Part shown: piece by piece, positions 12,094-24,843 of the stretch
Layout: each line of letters starts with the position of its first letter
Numbering within the stretch: position 1 is the stretch's first letter
Notes under the pieces: model-generated
Told to the model about the DNA's origin: nothing
Database searches by the model: none
Seen by the model: the letters and a program-made list of their open reading frames with translations, nothing else
Made by a program: the position numbers and the translations under genes
Source of the DNA: Pseudomonadota bacterium
Lineage (GTDB): Bacteria > Pseudomonadota > Gammaproteobacteria > Burkholderiales > Chitinibacteraceae
Length of the DNA stretch: 44,974 nt
Assembly (NCBI GenBank): GCA_026399755.1
Contig: JAPLQI010000096.1
Coordinates: 1-44,974 of the forward strand
Direction: 5' to 3'

Positions 12094-13410
12094 TTAGAGG
12101 AAAGCCAATAAAGGTGAGATGCACAGCAAGAAGCCCGTCGCAATAATCACTTTGAGTGCCCAGCCTTTGTATTGGTGTAATGCGGGGACTTTGTAAACCA
12201 AATAGGCTGGAATTAAGCACCCGATTAAACCAAAGATAGGGCTACAGATTGAGGTAAAGCTTAGCACCGGCGCATTTAGTGCGATGGCACCCCATGAGAG
12301 CAAGATCGTGAAGACGATAATGCCTTTGGCAACCAGTGCTTTATTGATCTCTTCTTCGGTATAAAAACGGCGCAATACATTAAGCGCAATACCTTGACAC
12401 GCTTCACGAAAGCCAAGGTAAACACCAAAATAGGCTGTCATCACGGCAAAGATATTTAATACCAAGCTAAATATTTTAACAGTATCACCTGGTACGCTTT
12501 TGGCAACCATGGCCAGTGCCGAGATATTTTGTTTAGAGGCTTGGACCGCTTGCTCATGGCCCATAGCCAAAGTGAATGACACGGCGTAAAAGAAAACAGC
12601 AACAAACAAAATTCCAAAGGCAATATTCATAGCCCGCATCGCTTTGAATTGTGCGACATCACGTGATTTTTCTCGGGCACGATAAGAAATCACCATAGGG
12701 CTCAAACTTTGGATAAATAGAATCGACGTTAAAGTAAACGGCAACATAATGATGGCATCGGGAATTAATTTGCTGAGCGGGGGGATTGCACCAATATTGT
12801 GATAGTCCCATTGACTGACCATCATCAGGCCGAGAATCGTGACGACACCGAGCTTGGTGATGACCATGCCTGATGAAATTTTAAACAGCAGTTTTTCACC
12901 ACGAGAAGCGAGAGCGACGAGTAAACAGATCAGTCCAAGACCATAGAAAGGATTGGTTGAGAGTAATGTTTCAGTGGCACCAAAACTCTGTAAAAACGAT
13001 GCGCTATCGTTGGTAATGGCAGTTGAATACACAAAGACCCAGATGACTAGCATGATGAAATACAGCACACCAAGCAAAACACCCCAGTTTTTACCGAGAT
13101 AACCGGAAATCACGCCTGCGTAGTCATCACATTTAGGTGAAGTGGCTAAGGTATTGATAAACAATTTTTGAAACATATACATGGCTGGGTAACCAATAAT
13201 CGACGACAGCAAAAACACCCATAGCCCCATCAACCCAACCTGAACGGGCAAAAAAACAATCCCAGCTCCGATAGCCATCCCAATACTCATAATCACCCAG
13301 CCCCAATCGGTACTATCAAAGCGGGTAGCTTCTTTCCATTGTGCGGCACTCATCTGACTTCGGCTGAGTTTGATCTCTTGTTCTGCTGAACTGCTTAAGG
13401 GCTGTCCCAT
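12094..13410 (-). CDS. cyuP: CyuP/DlsT (YhaO)-like cysteine/serine permease, HAAAP family
   Basis: This is an inner-membrane amino-acid:cation symporter of 438 residues with about 11 membrane segments. It matches my recollection of E. coli YhaO (DlsT, now CyuP) almost throughout, for example FDSTDWGWVIMSIGMAIGAG, GLMGLWVFLLSSIIGYPAMY and FTLTSILFIQSLSPMVISYR. In E. coli this carrier imports cysteine and/or serine and is paired with the desulfidase CyuA. Here the CyuA-like gene lies on the other side of the regulator gene and is transcribed divergently. An FNR-type palindrome centred 144 bases upstream of the start has a TATCTT -10 hexamer at class II spacing for this gene. Confidence 0.9.
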   Translation of the reverse strand: MGQPLSSSAEQEIKLSRSQMSAAQWKEATRFDSTDWGWVIMSIGMAIGAGIVFLPVQVGLMGLWVFLLSSIIGYPAMYMFQKLFINTLATSPKCDDYAGVISGYLGKNWGVLLGVLYFIMLVIWVFVYSTAITNDSASFLQSFGATETLLSTNPFYGLGLICLLVALASRGEKLLFKISSGMVITKLGVVTILGLMMVSQWDYHNIGAIPPLSKLIPDAIIMLPFTLTSILFIQSLSPMVISYRAREKSRDVAQFKAMRAMNIAFGILFVAVFFYAVSFTLAMGHEQAVQASKQNISALAMVAKSVPGDTVKIFSLVLNIFAVMTAYFGVYLGFREACQGIALNVLRRFYTEEEINKALVAKGIIVFTILLSWGAIALNAPVLSFTSICSPIFGLIGCLIPAYLVYKVPALHQYKGWALKVIIATGFLLCISPLLAFL

Positions 13411-13547: not shown

Positions 13548-13561
13548 TTGATTAAAATCAA
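13548..13561. promoter_or_regulatory. FNR-type binding site between cyuP and its divergent regulator
   Basis: TTGATTAAAATCAA is a perfect match to the FNR/ANR consensus TTGAT-N4-ATCAA. With its centre at -41.5, the -10 position falls on TATAAT (13584-13589) rightward and on TATCTT leftward. One symmetric site could therefore activate both divergent transcripts. Confidence 0.65.
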
Positions 13562-13819: not shown

Positions 13820-14452
13820 ATGAAAATACTAATTGATGCCCAGTTGCTTGTGAGCTTTATTGCTGCCGTTTTGGGTGAGGATTCTGAAGTCGTCGTGCAT
13901 GATTTATCAAATGTGAATGCGTCGCTAACCGCCATCAGTAACGGTCATTTGTCCGGTCGTGAAGTAGGCGCTCCCGCGACGGATTTAGCGCTGCGAATGC
14001 TGCAAGAATGTATGCAAGCAAGCGATGTGAGTTACAAGTTAAATTACCGCAGCAAGACTCGTGACGGTGTTTTGCTGCGTTCATCAACTTTGATTATCAA
14101 AGACGAGAATGATCAGCCCGCAGCGATGCTTTGTGTGAATACCGATGACAAGCGATTGCTTGAGTTACAAGACTCAGTCAGAAAACTATTACCGCCCAAT
14201 ATGGCCGAACAACAACAACAGGAATTTTTGTCAGCATCGGTTGACGATGTTGGGCAAGAAATATTACAAAGTGTACTAGAGCAATATTCAATTACACCGT
14301 CGCGAATGTCGGCTGATGAGAAATCCAAGGTGGTTAAAGACCTAGAGCAACGCGGTTTGTTTTCAATACGTGGCTTTGTCGCCAAAACCGCAGCGATTCT
14401 CGAAATTTCAGAGCCAACGCTATATCGCTATCTAAAAAGCAGTACAAATTAA
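13820..14452 (+). CDS. YheO/DauR-type PAS-HTH transcriptional regulator of the cysteine module
   Basis: The protein has 210 residues. The N-terminal YheO-like PAS domain (about 1-120) includes [32 protein letters not shown] and [19 protein letters not shown]. The C-terminal winged/HTH segment (about 155-210) includes [24 protein letters not shown] and [11 protein letters not shown]. This family includes DauR of Pseudomonas, which controls D-arginine catabolism; its effector here is unknown. The gene is divergent from cyuP and precedes the CyuA-like gene by 70 bases, so local control of both is likely. It is paralogous to the regulator at 18147 with the same domain order and nearly identical C-terminal HTH wording. 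Confidence 0.88.
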
Positions 14453-18051: not shown

Positions 18052-18065
18052 TTGATGCGCATCAA
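18052..18065. promoter_or_regulatory. FNR-type binding site upstream of the serine module
   Basis: TTGATGCGCATCAA is perfectly palindromic and matches the FNR consensus. The best downstream -10 (TAGAAT, 18107-18112) puts the site centre near -60.5, close to the class I spacing of -61.5. The -35 region is poor, as expected for an activator-dependent promoter. Confidence 0.6.
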
Positions 18066-18146: not shown

Positions 18147-18773
18147 ATGAAAATATCGATAGACCTAGACATCCTCTCCGACTTTCTATCTCAGGTACTG
18201 GGAGAGTCAACAGAGGTGGCTGTTCACGATATGAATCAGCTAGAAAAATCGCTCTGCATTATTAAGAATCCCATCTCAGGCCGAGAAATTGGTGCACCCG
18301 CCACGGCTTTTGCCCTGCACTTACTACGCGAATGCCAAGACGGCGCCAAAGCGCCATTTCGTACCAACTACCTTGGCAAGACGCTAGATGGCCATCGCCT
18401 TCGCAGCTCCAGCATGTTGCTACAGGACGAAGCAGGAAAACCCTTTGCCATGCTGTGCATTAACCGCAATGACTATCACCTACAACGCGCAAGCGAATTA
18501 CTGCATCAATTTTTTCAACACGAAGAAAGTACCCCTAGCGAAGAATTACTTAGTCACTCCGTAGAAGAATTAGGCGACGACATTATTAATCAGGCATTAG
18601 CCAGCTATCCGATTGCCGCCAAACACTTAAGCAGCACAGATAAAAAAGACATTGTGCAAAAGCTTGAACAAAACGGCGTTTTTTTGGTGAAAGGTTTTAT
18701 TGCAAAAACAGCTTCTTTACTCTCGATTTCAGAACCAACGCTTTATCGCTATTTAAAAAACAGTACTAACTAA
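18147..18773 (+). CDS. YheO/DauR-type PAS-HTH transcriptional regulator of the serine module
   Basis: This 208-residue protein is a paralogue of the regulator at 13820. The YheO-like PAS domain contains VAVHDMNQLEKSLCIIKNPISGREIGAPAT and the C-terminal HTH contains [37 protein letters not shown]. It is the first gene of a likely three-gene operon with sdaC and sdaA, on the same strand with a 76-base gap. Its predicted role is to sense a small metabolite, possibly serine or a product, and to control the module. The effector is not known. Confidence 0.87.
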   Translation: MKISIDLDILSDFLSQVLGESTEVAVHDMNQLEKSLCIIKNPISGREIGAPATAFALHLLRECQDGAKAPFRTNYLGKTLDGHRLRSSSMLLQDEAGKPFAMLCINRNDYHLQRASELLHQFFQHEESTPSEELLSHSVEELGDDIINQALASYPIAAKHLSSTDKKDIVQKLEQNGVFLVKGFIAKTASLLSISEPTLYRYLKNSTN

Positions 18774-18849: not shown

Positions 18850-20151
18850 ATGTCTGATACAACACTCAACGATCTAGCGCTGCCTGGCAGCGCCGCAAAA
18901 TGGACCAAACACGATACAGTTTGGATGCTCGGCCTCTACGGAACCGCTGTAGGCGCGGGCACTTTATTCTTGCCAATTAATGCGGGTATTGGTGGCTTAT
19001 GGCCGCTGGTTTTAATGGCGCTTTTAGCATTGCCATTAACCTTCTTTGCTCACCAAGGGTTAAGTCGCTTTGTACTTTCTGGCTCAACCAAAGACGGCGA
19101 CATTACTGAAGTAGTAGAAGAACATTTCGGCAAGGGTGCGGGGAAACTCATTACCCTACTTTACTTCTTTGCCATCTATCCAATTTTATTGGTTTACAGC
19201 GTGGCCATTACCAACACGGTATTGTCCTTCCTCACCCACCAATTGCATATTGCCGTGGGCACCGATTTAGTCACACGCGGTATTTTTGCGCTGTGTTTAA
19301 TCTTGGGCCTGATGTCTATCGTGCGCTTGGGTGGTGAAGTCATCGTTAAAGCCATGAGCATCTTGGTTTATCCTTTTGTGATTGCCTTAATGCTGCTTGC
19401 GGTATATCTGATTCCAAACTGGAATAGCTCGGTGATTGATCAAGCAGGTAGCCTAGGTGATGCACTGACTAGCGCTTCTTTCTACAAAACGATGTGGCTT
19501 GCAATCCCAGTGATGGTTTTCTCGTTTAACCATTCACCTATCATTTCTTCTTTTGCAGTGGGACAGAAAAAACTTCACCCAGGTAAAGAAGATCAAATCG
19601 CATCGAAGATCCTATTACGCAGCCACATCATGATGGTGTTGTCAGTTATGTTCTTTGTATTTAGCTGTGTATTTAGCTTGGCTCCTGCCGATTTAATTGC
19701 TGCTAAAGCCCAAAATATTTCGATCTTGTCCTACCTTGCTAATCACTTTGATAACCCAGTCATTGCATGGCTTGCTCCGATTATTGCCTTTATCGCTATT
19801 ACTAAGTCCTACCTTGGTCACTACCTTGGCGCCAAAGAAGGCCTGCATGGCTTGGTAATCAAACAATTGCGTGAAAAAGGTAAAACAATTTCAACACCCA
19901 AGCTTGAACGTTACACCTCGATCTTTATGCTGATCACCACTTGGTTAGTTGCCACCATCAACCCAAATATCTTGGGAATGATTGAAACACTAGGCGGCCC
20001 AGTGATTGCGGTACTGCTGTTCCTGATGCCAATGTATGCCATCCGTAAAGTACCTGCCATGCGTAAGTATTCCGGTGCAGCCAGCAATGTGTTTGTGGTC
20101 TTGATTGGTGTGATTGCTATCTCTGCGATCTTCTTTAGCCTCATGTCCTAA
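18850..20151 (+). CDS. sdaC: Serine transporter SdaC-like, HAAAP family
   Basis: This is an inner-membrane serine:proton symporter of 433 residues with about 11 membrane helices. Typical segments are TVWMLGLYGTAVGAGTLFLP, PLTFFAHQGLSRFVLSGS, VFSFNHSPIISSFAVGQKK and AITKSYLGHYLGAKEGLHGL. SdaC and CyuP belong to the same transporter family, so the two modules in this window have related carriers. It sits between its regulator and sdaA, and supplies serine to the dehydratase. Confidence 0.92.
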   Translation: MSDTTLNDLALPGSAAKWTKHDTVWMLGLYGTAVGAGTLFLPINAGIGGLWPLVLMALLALPLTFFAHQGLSRFVLSGSTKDGDITEVVEEHFGKGAGKLITLLYFFAIYPILLVYSVAITNTVLSFLTHQLHIAVGTDLVTRGIFALCLILGLMSIVRLGGEVIVKAMSILVYPFVIALMLLAVYLIPNWNSSVIDQAGSLGDALTSASFYKTMWLAIPVMVFSFNHSPIISSFAVGQKKLHPGKEDQIASKILLRSHIMMVLSVMFFVFSCVFSLAPADLIAAKAQNISILSYLANHFDNPVIAWLAPIIAFIAITKSYLGHYLGAKEGLHGLVIKQLREKGKTISTPKLERYTSIFMLITTWLVATINPNILGMIETLGGPVIAVLLFLMPMYAIRKVPAMRKYSGAASNVFVVLIGVIAISAIFFSLMS

Positions 20152-20209
20152 ACGCAATATATACAGCCTGCACTCATGCAGAGCAGGCTGTATTCACAAG
20201 GAAATAGCC

Positions 20210-21601
20210 ATGTTTAGCACCTTAGATATCTACAAAATTGGCATTGGCCCATCAAGCTCGCACACCATTGGCCCCATGAAAGCTGGGCATCAGTTTTTAG
20301 GCACACTAAAAGAAACGGGGCAATTTAATGCGGTGACCAAAATCGCAGTGGATTGCTACGGCTCGCTCTCCCTTACAGGGAAAGGCCATTGCACCGATCA
20401 CGCCATCATGCTGGGCCTAGCAGGCAATCTACCCGATACGATTGATTTAGATAATATGGCCAGCATCGTGCAGGAAGTTGAGCAAAACGGCACGATCTGC
20501 CTAGGCCGCACTCAGCAACGCGTTGGCTTTAGCTTAGTGTTTCAAGACAGCTACCTGCCCCTGCACGAAAACGGCATGATGATCCGCGCCTTTGTGGGAG
20601 ATGTCTGCTGCCTAAGTAAGACTTATTATTCGATTGGTGGCGGCTTTATTGTTGATGAAGAACACTTCAACCAAGGTAGTTGCAACGATATTCCTGTACC
20701 ACATCATTTCTTAAGCGCCGAAGATTTGCTAAATATGTGCGACGACAGCGGTCTTTCAATTTCTGCACTGGTGCTAGAAAACGAGAAAGCTTTCCACGAC
20801 ATCGCCGACATCAAAGCCCATTTCGTCCGTGTTTGGAACGTCATGCAAAGCAGTATCGAGCGTGGCATGAAAACCGAAGGCAATCTGCCCGGCCCAATGC
20901 GTATTCCTCGCCGCGCACCTGCTCTGCATCATCTACTCACCAGCTCGCTTGATGTATCTAAAGACCCGCTGAATGTGATGGATTGGGTGAATATGTATGC
21001 GATGGCAATGTCAGAAGAAAACGCCGCAGGTGGCCGCGTCATTACCGCCCCCACCAATGGCGCTTGTGGCATCGTTCCTGGCGTGATGTCTTACTACAAT
21101 CACTTTATTAAGCCACTGGATGAAGACAGCGCCCTGCGTTTCTTCTTGTCATCCGGTGCAATTGGCTGCTTGTACAAGCTCAACGCATCCATCTCTGGTG
21201 CTGAAGTAGGCTGTCAGGGTGAAGTCGGCGTTGCCTGCTCTATGGCCGCTGCCGGCCTTGCCGAATTGATGGGTGGCAGCCCAGCACAAGTCTGCATGGC
21301 CGCAGAAATCGCCATGGAACACAATCTGGGCCTCACTTGTGACCCAGTCGGTGGGCAAGTACAGATTCCATGTATCGAGCGCAACGCCATTGGCGCAGTC
21401 AAAGCCATCAACGCAGCCCGTATGGCCATGCACCGCAGCAGCAGCCCTAAAGTGTCTTTAGATAAAGTGATTGCAGCGATGTATGCCACCGGCAAAGATA
21501 TGGACGCAAAATACCGCGAAACATCCTGCGGCGGTTTGGCCTTGCAAATCACCGCTCCAGCGCTAAAAACCATACGTTTTATGGATAAAGTGCCTGCTTA
21601 A
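20210..21601 (+). CDS. sdaA: L-serine ammonia-lyase (dehydratase), iron-sulfur single-chain type
   Basis: This enzyme deaminates L-serine to pyruvate and ammonia with an oxygen-sensitive [4Fe-4S] cluster. The ATG at 20210 ([22 protein letters not shown]) with AAGGAA upstream is the family start, although the frame is open from 20114. The protein has 463 residues: an N-terminal beta domain with [16 protein letters not shown] and a C-terminal alpha domain with [37 protein letters not shown] and [16 protein letters not shown], whose cysteines supply the cluster. The gene follows sdaC by 58 bases and ends at a terminator. The cluster chemistry fits the FNR-type site upstream of the module. Confidence 0.96.
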
Positions 21602-23577: not shown

Positions 23578-23839
23578 TTTCATAAGCCCCTGCTTTTACA
23601 TAAGGATCACTGTCAGCCCACGCTTGAGCTTCCGACAGAGAATCAAACTCTGCGACGATTAAACTACCCGAAAAACCAGCAGAGCCAGGGTCTACCGCAT
23701 CTATCGCAGGAAAAGGCCCTGCCAGCACCAAGCGCCCTACTTCTTTTAAGCACTCTAATCTAGCCAAATGCGCGGGACGGCTCGCCAAACGCTCTGTAGC
23801 GCGATCAGGATAATTATTTGCAATAATCGCGTAAAGCAT
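23540..23839 (-). CDS. yciI: YciI-like protein
   Basis: This is a 99-residue stand-alone YciI domain (dimeric alpha-beta fold). The conserved His and Asp/Glu positions lie in RPAHLARLECLKEVGRLVLAGP and EAQAWADSDPYVKAGAYENV. The enzymatic role is not firmly established; the family is related to muconolactone-isomerase-like folds. Its start overlaps the yciB stop by one base (TGATG), so it is translated by coupling. The order yciB-yciI-bolA is common in betaproteobacteria. Confidence 0.9.
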   Translation of the reverse strand: MLYAIIANNYPDRATERLASRPAHLARLECLKEVGRLVLAGPFPAIDAVDPGSAGFSGSLIVAEFDSLSEAQAWADSDPYVKAGAYENVIAKPFLQVLP

Positions 23840-24396
23840 CAGGACTCCTTATTTTCTTGTACTGGGTCATCAGTAAGATACCGTGAAAGCACCCATGCTT
23901 GCAGTAGCACAAATACCAGTGTCAGCCCCAATGTACCAAACATCTTAAAATTAACCCACTGATCTTCAGTAAAGTTAAAGGCTACATAAAGGTTAAGCAC
24001 ACCCATGCTGGCAAAAAATGTAACCCAAGCCAAATTAACTTTGTCCCATAACTTAGCGGGTAAGTTCATTTGTGGGCCCATTAAACTTTGCATTAGGTTC
24101 TTGCCACGTAAATAACGAGACCCGCACAGAATAACGGCAAACACCCAATACAGCACCGTGGGTTTCCACAGAATAAAGGCTTTATTGTGCAGCAATAAGG
24201 TTGCGCCACCCAGCACAGTAATCAAGCCAAAACTTAACCACAGCATGCCATCAACTTTACGGTGCTTAAACCAAGACCAAGCCACTTGCGCCGTGGTGGT
24301 TACAATCGCGACGCCGGTGGCGGCATAAATGCTTTTGGTAATGGAATAGGTTACAAAAAACAGGATAACGGAGAAGAGGTCGAAAAGGGCTTTCAT
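23839..24396 (-). CDS. yciB: Inner-membrane septation/spanning protein YciB (IspZ family)
   Basis: This is a polytopic inner-membrane protein of about 185 residues from the ATG at 24396 ([14 protein letters not shown]), which has GAAG six bases upstream. Five or so membrane segments are seen. Family segments are [60 protein letters not shown] and [19 protein letters not shown]. It is linked to septum formation and cell-envelope integrity in enterobacteria. Confidence 0.95.
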
Positions 24397-24463
24397 TAGC
24401 ATCTTCAAAAGAGAGATGCCGCATTATGCTGACCCATTTTTACGAAAACAAGTAAATGACGAC

Positions 24464-24493
24464 AAAAAAAAGCGCCGCGACAGTGCGCGGCGC
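24464..24493 (-). terminator. Intrinsic terminator of the candidate sRNA
   Basis: On the minus strand, GCGCCGCG pairs with CGCGGCGC around CACTGT and is followed by eight T. Confidence 0.9.
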
Positions 24494-24533
24494 AAAATTA
24501 CCACTGGAGATACACGAAGCATCAGCTTGCGTG
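24464..24533 (-). ncRNA. Candidate FNR-dependent small RNA
   Basis: A predicted transcript of about 70 nt has its start near 24533, exactly 41.5 bases from the centre of the FNR-type box. Its 5' part folds as CACG-C-AAGC-TGAT-GCTT-CGTG. A single-stranded stretch containing CTCC follows (TATCTCCAGTGGTAATTTT), then a perfect 8-bp GC stem and eight T. This is the layout of anti-Shine-Dalgarno Hfq-type sRNAs such as FnrS (E. coli) and AniS (Neisseria). The lack of any ORF here supports an RNA. It lies between yciB and ffs. Not experimentally shown. Confidence 0.6.
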
Positions 24534-24539
24534 AAAGTC

Positions 24540-24545
24540 ATTCTG
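24540..24545 (-). promoter_or_regulatory. Predicted -10 of the candidate sRNA promoter
   Basis: On the minus strand this reads CAGAAT (4 of 6 consensus bases) and sits at -12 to -7 when the FNR-type box is centred at -41.5. Confidence 0.5.
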
Positions 24546-24567
24546 GCGCAAAAGGGCATTAAAGGCA

Positions 24568-24581
24568 TTGATGTGGATCAA
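24568..24581. promoter_or_regulatory. FNR-type binding site of the candidate sRNA
   Basis: TTGATGTGGATCAA matches TTGAT-N4-ATCAA in full. The plus-strand side has no usable -10 at the class II distance (GATGTT), so activation would be leftward, toward the terminator at 24464-24493. Confidence 0.65.
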
Positions 24582-24732
24582 TCAGAACAAACTGATTTAA
24601 ACAGATGTTTATTTGGCACAAATGACAAATAACTAGCCCCCATAAGCAATAATTGGGAGCGCATATTTTAAACAAGTGGATTTAAATCAGACTTAGATTT
24701 GCGCAGAATGGCAAAACCAAAAAAAGGGGAGG

Positions 24733-24843
24733 TGGCGAGCCTAACCCCCGGCACTAGCATCAAAAGCTGTGGCTGCTTCCTTCCGGACCTGACCAAGTTC
24801 ACCTTCTAGCTATGCGGGGAGACCCGCCGTCGAACACAGGGCC
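24733..24843 (-). ncRNA. ffs: 4.5S RNA, signal recognition particle RNA
   Basis: The minus strand carries the invariant apical loop sequence GGTCAGGTCCGGAAGGAAGC (plus-strand 24777-24796), which binds the Ffh M domain. It is flanked by partly complementary arms with CCCCGCATAGCTAG on one side and GATGCTAGTGCCGGGG on the other. Ffh and this RNA target nascent membrane proteins to FtsY. A TATAGT -10 hexamer (24846-24851) with a GC-rich discriminator fits a strong, growth-controlled promoter. The ends are estimated to within about 5 bases; a T-run follows at about 24725. Confidence 0.93.

Follow-up and report, generated by a model that had tools for sequence, protein, structure and literature searches.

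A conserved candidate gene for an FNR-controlled small RNA between ffs and yciB in Chitinibacteraceae

The interval between the 4.5S RNA gene ffs and a downstream septation protein gene, presumably yciB (the name was given by recognition both in an earlier note on this DNA and by us), raises the question of whether it holds a gene for a small regulatory RNA under FNR control, as the earlier note had proposed. In the following, the window is the whole stretch of DNA that was analysed (44,974 nucleotides). Through genome comparison, the predicted small RNA (sRNA) gene has passed from a candidate to a strongly supported one. In our reading, the interval very probably holds a stand-alone gene for a trans-acting sRNA of ~70 nt that is activated by an FNR-family regulator and masks ribosome-binding sites.

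The elements of the locus lie on the minus strand and are collected in Table 1. The perfect FNR-type palindrome reported before is exact and matches all 10 specified FNR bases. The same holds for the class II spacing; when the box centre is set to -41.5, the start site falls at 24533 and CAGAAT then occupies exactly the -10 position. A sigma-70 promoter with a -35 hexamer has not been found in a scan around the element, which is expected if FNR substitutes for the -35 contacts. Exact TTGATNNNNATCAA boxes occur three times in the window against 0.09 expected, and none of 100 shuffles reached three, so that FNR-type boxes are enriched across the whole window and the sRNA box is not alone there. 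The window box is not a chance occurrence. The joint conservation of box, -10 element, RNA, and terminator is a stronger test than the box count.

Table 1. Features at the predicted sRNA locus (window coordinates)
Feature	Position	Strand	Basis or detail
FNR-type palindrome TTGATCCACATCAA	24568..24581	-	sequence; centred at -41.5; plus strand reads TTGATGTGGATCAA
-10 element CAGAAT	24540..24545	-	sequence; falls at -12 to -7
Predicted transcription start	24533	-	class II spacing rule
Predicted 70-nt sRNA	24464..24533	-	BLAST relatives in its own family, model matches in a second; fold z -3.26
5' hairpin (4 pairs, bulged C, 4 pairs, UGAU loop)	24513..24533	-	predicted fold
Invariant 15-nt core GUGUAUCUCCAGUGG with anti-Shine-Dalgarno UCUCC	24501..24515	-	alignment
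Intrinsic terminator, 8 GC pairs, T8	24464..24493	-	stem 24493-24472, loop 6, T8 24471-24464
ffs (4.5S RNA), upstream neighbour	24731..24828	-	RF00169, 73 bits
yciB-like septation protein gene, downstream neighbour	23839..24408	-	ORF

The other two exact boxes of the window are located at 13548-13561 and 18052-18065. The first box is followed, on the minus strand, by a transporter gene (12094-13410) resembling a serine/threonine permease, and has TATCTT at the class II -10 spacing. The second precedes a gene (18147-18773) that resembles 13820-14452, by eye of the helix-turn-helix type. Given these two regulator-transporter pairs and an L-serine deaminase-like gene at 20114-21601, serine utilization here may come under FNR-type regulation.

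The predicted fold of the transcript consists of the 5' hairpin, a short weak hairpin, and the terminator (-27 kcal/mol), and only one of 200 shuffles folded as well. The model agrees with the ~70-nt RNA with a 5' hairpin and a CTCC-bearing open stretch that the earlier note had described, and the GC stem with its T8 run is likewise present, with all eight pairs GC. Terminator-like sites are not exceptional by themselves (3 per 1.5 kb vs 2.0 in shuffles). In the window, the first three bases of the core are also predicted to pair within the 5' hairpin.

BLAST with 24460-24640 as the query gave matches in 34 of 61 genomes; these are 34 of the 37 genomes of the window's own family (f1), while none of the 24 genomes from 24 other families had the element. 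The three f1 genomes missed all belong to one genus, g7. The window genome groups with Iodobacter, and its closest relative is G002 (97% identical over the query). An FNR-type box is present in all 30 f1 loci fetched, with 10/10 matching bases in 14, 9/10 in 10, and 8/10 in 6, and the gap from the box to the anchor is near-fixed at 41–45 nt. In a second family (f32), all five genomes carry the element, with no change in the 15-nt core and with a 9–10/10 box; the distance from box to core is 55–56 nt there vs 49–53 nt in f1.

Across 399 genomes of the order, model R1 matched 67 genomes at E up to 0.01. The R1 matches outside f1 are mostly noise, and f32 is the clear addition. Thirteen R1 loci outside f1 and f32 (L047, L048, L050-L060) have been rejected because no box stands at the right place; weaker R1 matches for which no loci were taken are not counted in this set. 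With model R2, which includes the promoter, matches came up in family f21 (G307) and, as a decayed copy, in G023. G307, also listed weakly by R1 (E 0.0028), does not count as an independent find, since its sequence is identical to the Parachitinimonas row that went into R2. For six of the 12 weak R2 loci (L402-L413), the match is confined to the model's 3' end. Neither model gave a strong match outside f1, f32, and f21 in the 399 genomes, a search in which weak relatives can be missed because the filters are strict and the sample is drawn from a larger group.

A scan of named genomes, which required the exact core (as BLAST and R1 did not) and a box remnant, gave 35 matches. We take 25 of them as real and 10 as chance (L061, L063, L067, L070, L073, L080, L081, L088, L091, L095); the Parachitinimonas match (L082) has been retained despite its broken T run. 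The real matches are from Iodobacter, Chitinibacter, Deefgea, Silvimonas, Jeongeupia, Chitiniphilus, Chitinolyticbacter, Chitinilyticum, Formivibrio, Amantichitinum, and Parachitinimonas, and from four bins with broad or doubtful names. Apart from these bins, all are genera of the NCBI Chitinibacteraceae, order Neisseriales. A bin labelled Janthinobacterium sp. (L077) is probably mislabelled, as it falls into one genus with the Iodobacter genomes. Neither Neisseria nor Chromobacterium is among the 35 matches. The box, the -10 element, and the hairpins, on whose conservation in related genomes the earlier note had made its proposal depend, are all kept in f1 and f32.

At one g7 locus (L401/L049; G023:C1:23432-23542, minus strand), the box and CAGAAT are kept, the usual 5' hairpin is lost, and GUGUUCCAGUG stands where GUGUAUCUCCAGUG is usual. 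This variant RNA has no match in the two other g7 genomes. Seed decay or retargeting are possible readings of this sequence.

The relatives show which parts of the RNA are fixed and which vary. The core is identical in all 30 rows of the f1 alignment and at the five f32 loci, and columns T9 to G32 of the f1 alignment are without variation. This core is the probable seed, and its UCUCC is 45–79% unpaired in the predicted ensembles. Folding and promoter comparisons used 34 distinct sequences (eight near-identical ones were omitted from 42 distinct real ones). Thirty-three of these have NANNNT at -12 to -7, and across families the start site that the box alone predicts coincides with, or adjoins, the foot of the 5' hairpin. 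The relatives' RNAs are 64–82 nt long. The hairpin itself varies in sequence (CACGcAAGC..GCUUCGUG; CAGAAGG..CCUUCUG; GGAAG..CUUCC), and f32 and Parachitinimonas have a hairpin of other sequence at the same place. It is weak in the f1 sequences outside Iodobacter (-5.1 kcal/mol, and -3.9 in one). For L026, L034, L075, and L027, full-length folding favours a different hairpin, in which a part of the core is paired. A GAUGC/GUAUC hairpin given by RNAalifold has been rejected as the conserved fold, since f32 is unable to form such a pairing; model R1 was built with it nonetheless.

The terminator is strong in every predicted fold of the 34 sequences. Among 19 distinct rows, seven of its eight pairs show compensatory changes and 95.4% of the cells are paired. 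None of 500 shuffles scored as high on four of five measures of covariation, and 15 of 500 did on the fifth.

Based on these observations, we infer the following sequence of events. When oxygen falls, an FNR-family regulator would bind the box at -41.5 and activate the sigma-70 RNA polymerase in class II fashion, so that a -35 element would not be needed. Six of the 30 boxes match at only 8/10, and the regulator may accordingly be FNR, ANR, or DNR. The resulting RNA would carry a protective 5' hairpin, the largely exposed invariant core, the strong terminator, and a U tail of the kind bound by Hfq or ProQ. Its UCUCC stretch could pair with the ribosome-binding sites of several mRNAs, covering the Shine-Dalgarno GGAG and flanking bases on either side. 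Such pairing would block translation in trans and give FNR a repressing arm at the RNA level.

The identity of the targets has been approached by a pairing comparison of candidate start sites, in which no target consistently conserved across genera was found. The genes ctaC, sodB, and doxX are leads only. Since ctaC and sodB were chosen from 83 listed sites, their shuffle figures overstate the case: the mean pairing energy for ctaC is -19.4 vs -13.8 for flank-shuffled seeds (0/500 as good; 16 distinct sites from genera g1-g5 and g8), and sodB shows a weak tendency (9/300; 23 distinct sites from 27 of 30 loci). By genus, the number of 500 shuffles that did as well for ctaC was 118 in g1, 3 in g2, 0 in g3, 9 in g4, 0 in g5, and 46 in g8. 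The pairing is good in g2-g5 and not in Iodobacter; counting G-U, it extends over 12 uninterrupted pairs in g3 and g5, and the runs of g2 and g4 are shorter. Equally strong pairing (0/500) is seen in g7, which is without the canonical RNA. The ctaC test left out G024, which had drawn attention to this gene; g9 and g10 gave no locus, and seven g6/g11 loci without a clear GGAG start were removed by hand (energies -13.5 to -21.2). The sodB test left out g7 and included G012, which had drawn attention to it. For the control genes, 267 (yciI), 47 (bolA, whose starts look misplaced), and 31 (asnA) of 300 shuffles did as well.

For doxX, ACCACTGGAGAT before the start is kept in 7/7 of the Iodobacter orthologues found, in which the whole upstream region is kept too; the eighth Iodobacter genome, G003, gave no orthologue match. 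Among the 12 best matches in other genera, CCACTGGAG is kept only by G015, three paralogues and two weak matches having been set aside. The predicted doxX pairing of 12 nt is confined to Iodobacter, with a 9-nt match in G015 besides. Matches in SpoVR have been rejected because they sit within a conserved protein motif, as have those in rpoC and ftsZ, which are probably conserved for other reasons. In one f32 genome, a second exact 15-nt complement of the seed, ACCACTGGAGATACA, lies away from the sRNA gene (L217; G111:C8:118011-118025). No same-strand frame of at least 70 codons covers it or starts within the next 60 bases, and it might be a target or a sponge.

The long invariant stretch (15 nt and more) and the lack of a target of matching conservation would also suit an sRNA whose main partner is another RNA or a protein, that is, a sponge or a protein-titrating RNA that does not act on ribosome-binding sites. 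We consider this quite unlikely. A largely accessible UCUCC is the typical anti-Shine-Dalgarno seed, and the ctaC and sodB sites outpair flank-shuffled seeds. The doxX and g3 ctaC sites are also in the best 1% of 87 background starts, although Iodobacter sodB reaches only the best 7%. Titration of CsrA in particular is unlikely since the window RNA has no GGA.

Neisseria belongs to the Neisseriales, the order to which NCBI taxonomy also assigns the genera listed above, and the RNA could in principle be a distant true homologue of the Neisseria AniS/FnrS that has been moved and rearranged. The layout and the promoter class, as given in the gonococcal description (PMC3032703), are common to both. 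On the other hand, that text describes an RNA of 108 nt that begins with AUG and lies beside bfrA/bfrB, while the predicted window RNA is 70 nt, begins with CAC, and lies between ffs and yciB. These differences, and the failure of R1 and R2 to find a strong match elsewhere among the 399 genomes of the order, make common descent improbable.

The neighbours of the element bear on whether it acts in cis. A yciB gene follows on the same strand in 33 of 35 judgeable f1 loci (L068 ends too early to judge) and in Parachitinimonas, and ffs is present in 12 of the 12 f1 loci scanned. Such an arrangement would be expected if the element were the 5' leader of yciB, with FNR driving yciB and the terminator working as a cis attenuator or riboswitch-like element. 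At the two Chitinilyticum loci (L011 and L013), however, no same-strand yciB follows. The five f32 loci have no neighbour in common with the window, and the three f32 genera differ in neighbours among themselves, yet box, -10 element, core, and terminator are kept. The two genomes of one f32 genus, g42 (L044, L045), have acetyltransferase-like and PilZ-like downstream genes in common, as judged by eye. Because the neighbours in f32 are quite different, the element is not a yciB leader there, and a terminator that is strong in every fold also argues against a leader, which makes this reading very improbable. The gene is not tied to one downstream gene, and this supports action in trans.

The segment of 118 bp had been called gene-free, and here the earlier note needs qualification, since a 58-codon open frame on the plus strand (24456-24632) overlaps it; the frame is not kept in the relatives. 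That the conserved piece functions through the opposite strand or at the DNA level (for example by encoding a short peptide or by binding a protein) is suggested by this antisense frame and by the unusually strict conservation of the core, but it is hardly credible, because the antisense frame varies between 9 and 79 codons, stop to stop, in 23 loci with no common start or end, the same 58 codons recur only in the nearest relative (L002), the sense frames end differently too so that an open frame is kept on neither strand, and single-base indels between relatives together with the terminator covariation point to an RNA from the minus strand.

Three loci in other families have FNR-type boxes before predicted short RNAs. 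L403 (G167:C4:30758-30889, minus strand; family f51) has TTGACATGGATCAA and AATATT at -12 to -7, followed by a predicted RNA of ~82 nt that contains UCUCC twice, ends in a strong terminator, and precedes a thioredoxin-like ORF; this is possibly an unrelated FNR-controlled sRNA with anti-Shine-Dalgarno motifs. L409 (G144:C21:690976-691096, minus strand; family f20) has an 8/10 box, CATTAT at -12 to -7, and a predicted ~69-nt RNA with a terminator between two ORFs that by eye are cation-ATPase-like and ccoN-like (cbb3 oxidase subunit), and might represent either an FNR sRNA or the leader of ccoN. L412 (G228:C84:22501-22631, plus strand; family f37) has a perfect TTGATCCAGATCAA, TAGAAT one base off the usual position, and a predicted ~82-nt RNA that contains GCUCC and ends in a long terminator. 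On the opposite strand it is overlapped by an open frame of 113 codons, and it has no evident sequence likeness to the window RNA.

In E. coli and Neisseria, FNR exerts part of its action via sRNAs, and the window RNA would be a further case, from environmental bacteria. A broader proposal is that an oxygen-switch sRNA of independent origin arose in the Chitinibacteraceae, in which the 15-nt Shine-Dalgarno-masking seed stayed frozen across families and the 5' hairpin was replaced repeatedly; that it shuts down the aerobic aa3 oxidase (ctaC) and the iron superoxide dismutase (sodB) in several genera when FNR is active; and that unrelated FNR sRNAs in other families (L403, L409, L412) mean that the circuit was invented repeatedly. 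We put this forward as a speculative extension that is unlikely to hold in full. A frozen seed with a changing hairpin would allow the convergence of such circuits, and whether they always acquire the same kind of targets, to be tested. The family alignment is ready for Rfam.

The earlier note had left undecided whether the RNA is a distant relative of known FNR-dependent sRNAs or a new one. As far as the tools reach, it appears to be new. At the gathering cut-off, Rfam gave only ffs in the window and 18 loci, with no family at the sRNA. At E up to 10, the region 24400-24730 gave 14 matches, all below the cut-offs and without FnrS, whose Rfam model we take to be RF01796; those listed as best for the minus strand coincide mostly with the terminator and have been discarded. 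In the open PMC literature, no title or abstract opening among the matches listed reports an sRNA in Iodobacter, Chitinibacter, Deefgea, or Chitinimonas. The ANR-dependent sRNAs PhrS and PaiI of Pseudomonas are also driven by an FNR-family low-oxygen regulator; they are other RNAs in another host group.

The closest comparison is with Neisseria, where AniS, FnrS, and NgncR_094 are one RNA according to PMC4176332. For the gonococcal RNA, PMC3032703 gives a 260-fold anaerobic induction of a promoter fusion, and the authors saw no homologue of the enterobacterial fnrS outside that family at the time. Enterobacterial FnrS is likewise an anaerobic sRNA with a class II FNR site at -41.5 (PMC3032703), which it has in common with the window RNA; in contrast, the window region shows no FnrS match in Rfam. 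The likeness of design that had been claimed stands: a perfect FNR box at -41.5, a 5' stem-loop, an unstructured middle, and an intrinsic terminator are described for the gonococcal FnrS/AniS (PMC3032703) and are predicted here in the same order. Set apart from AniS by description, the predicted window RNA represents a new sRNA family built on an FnrS/AniS-like plan.
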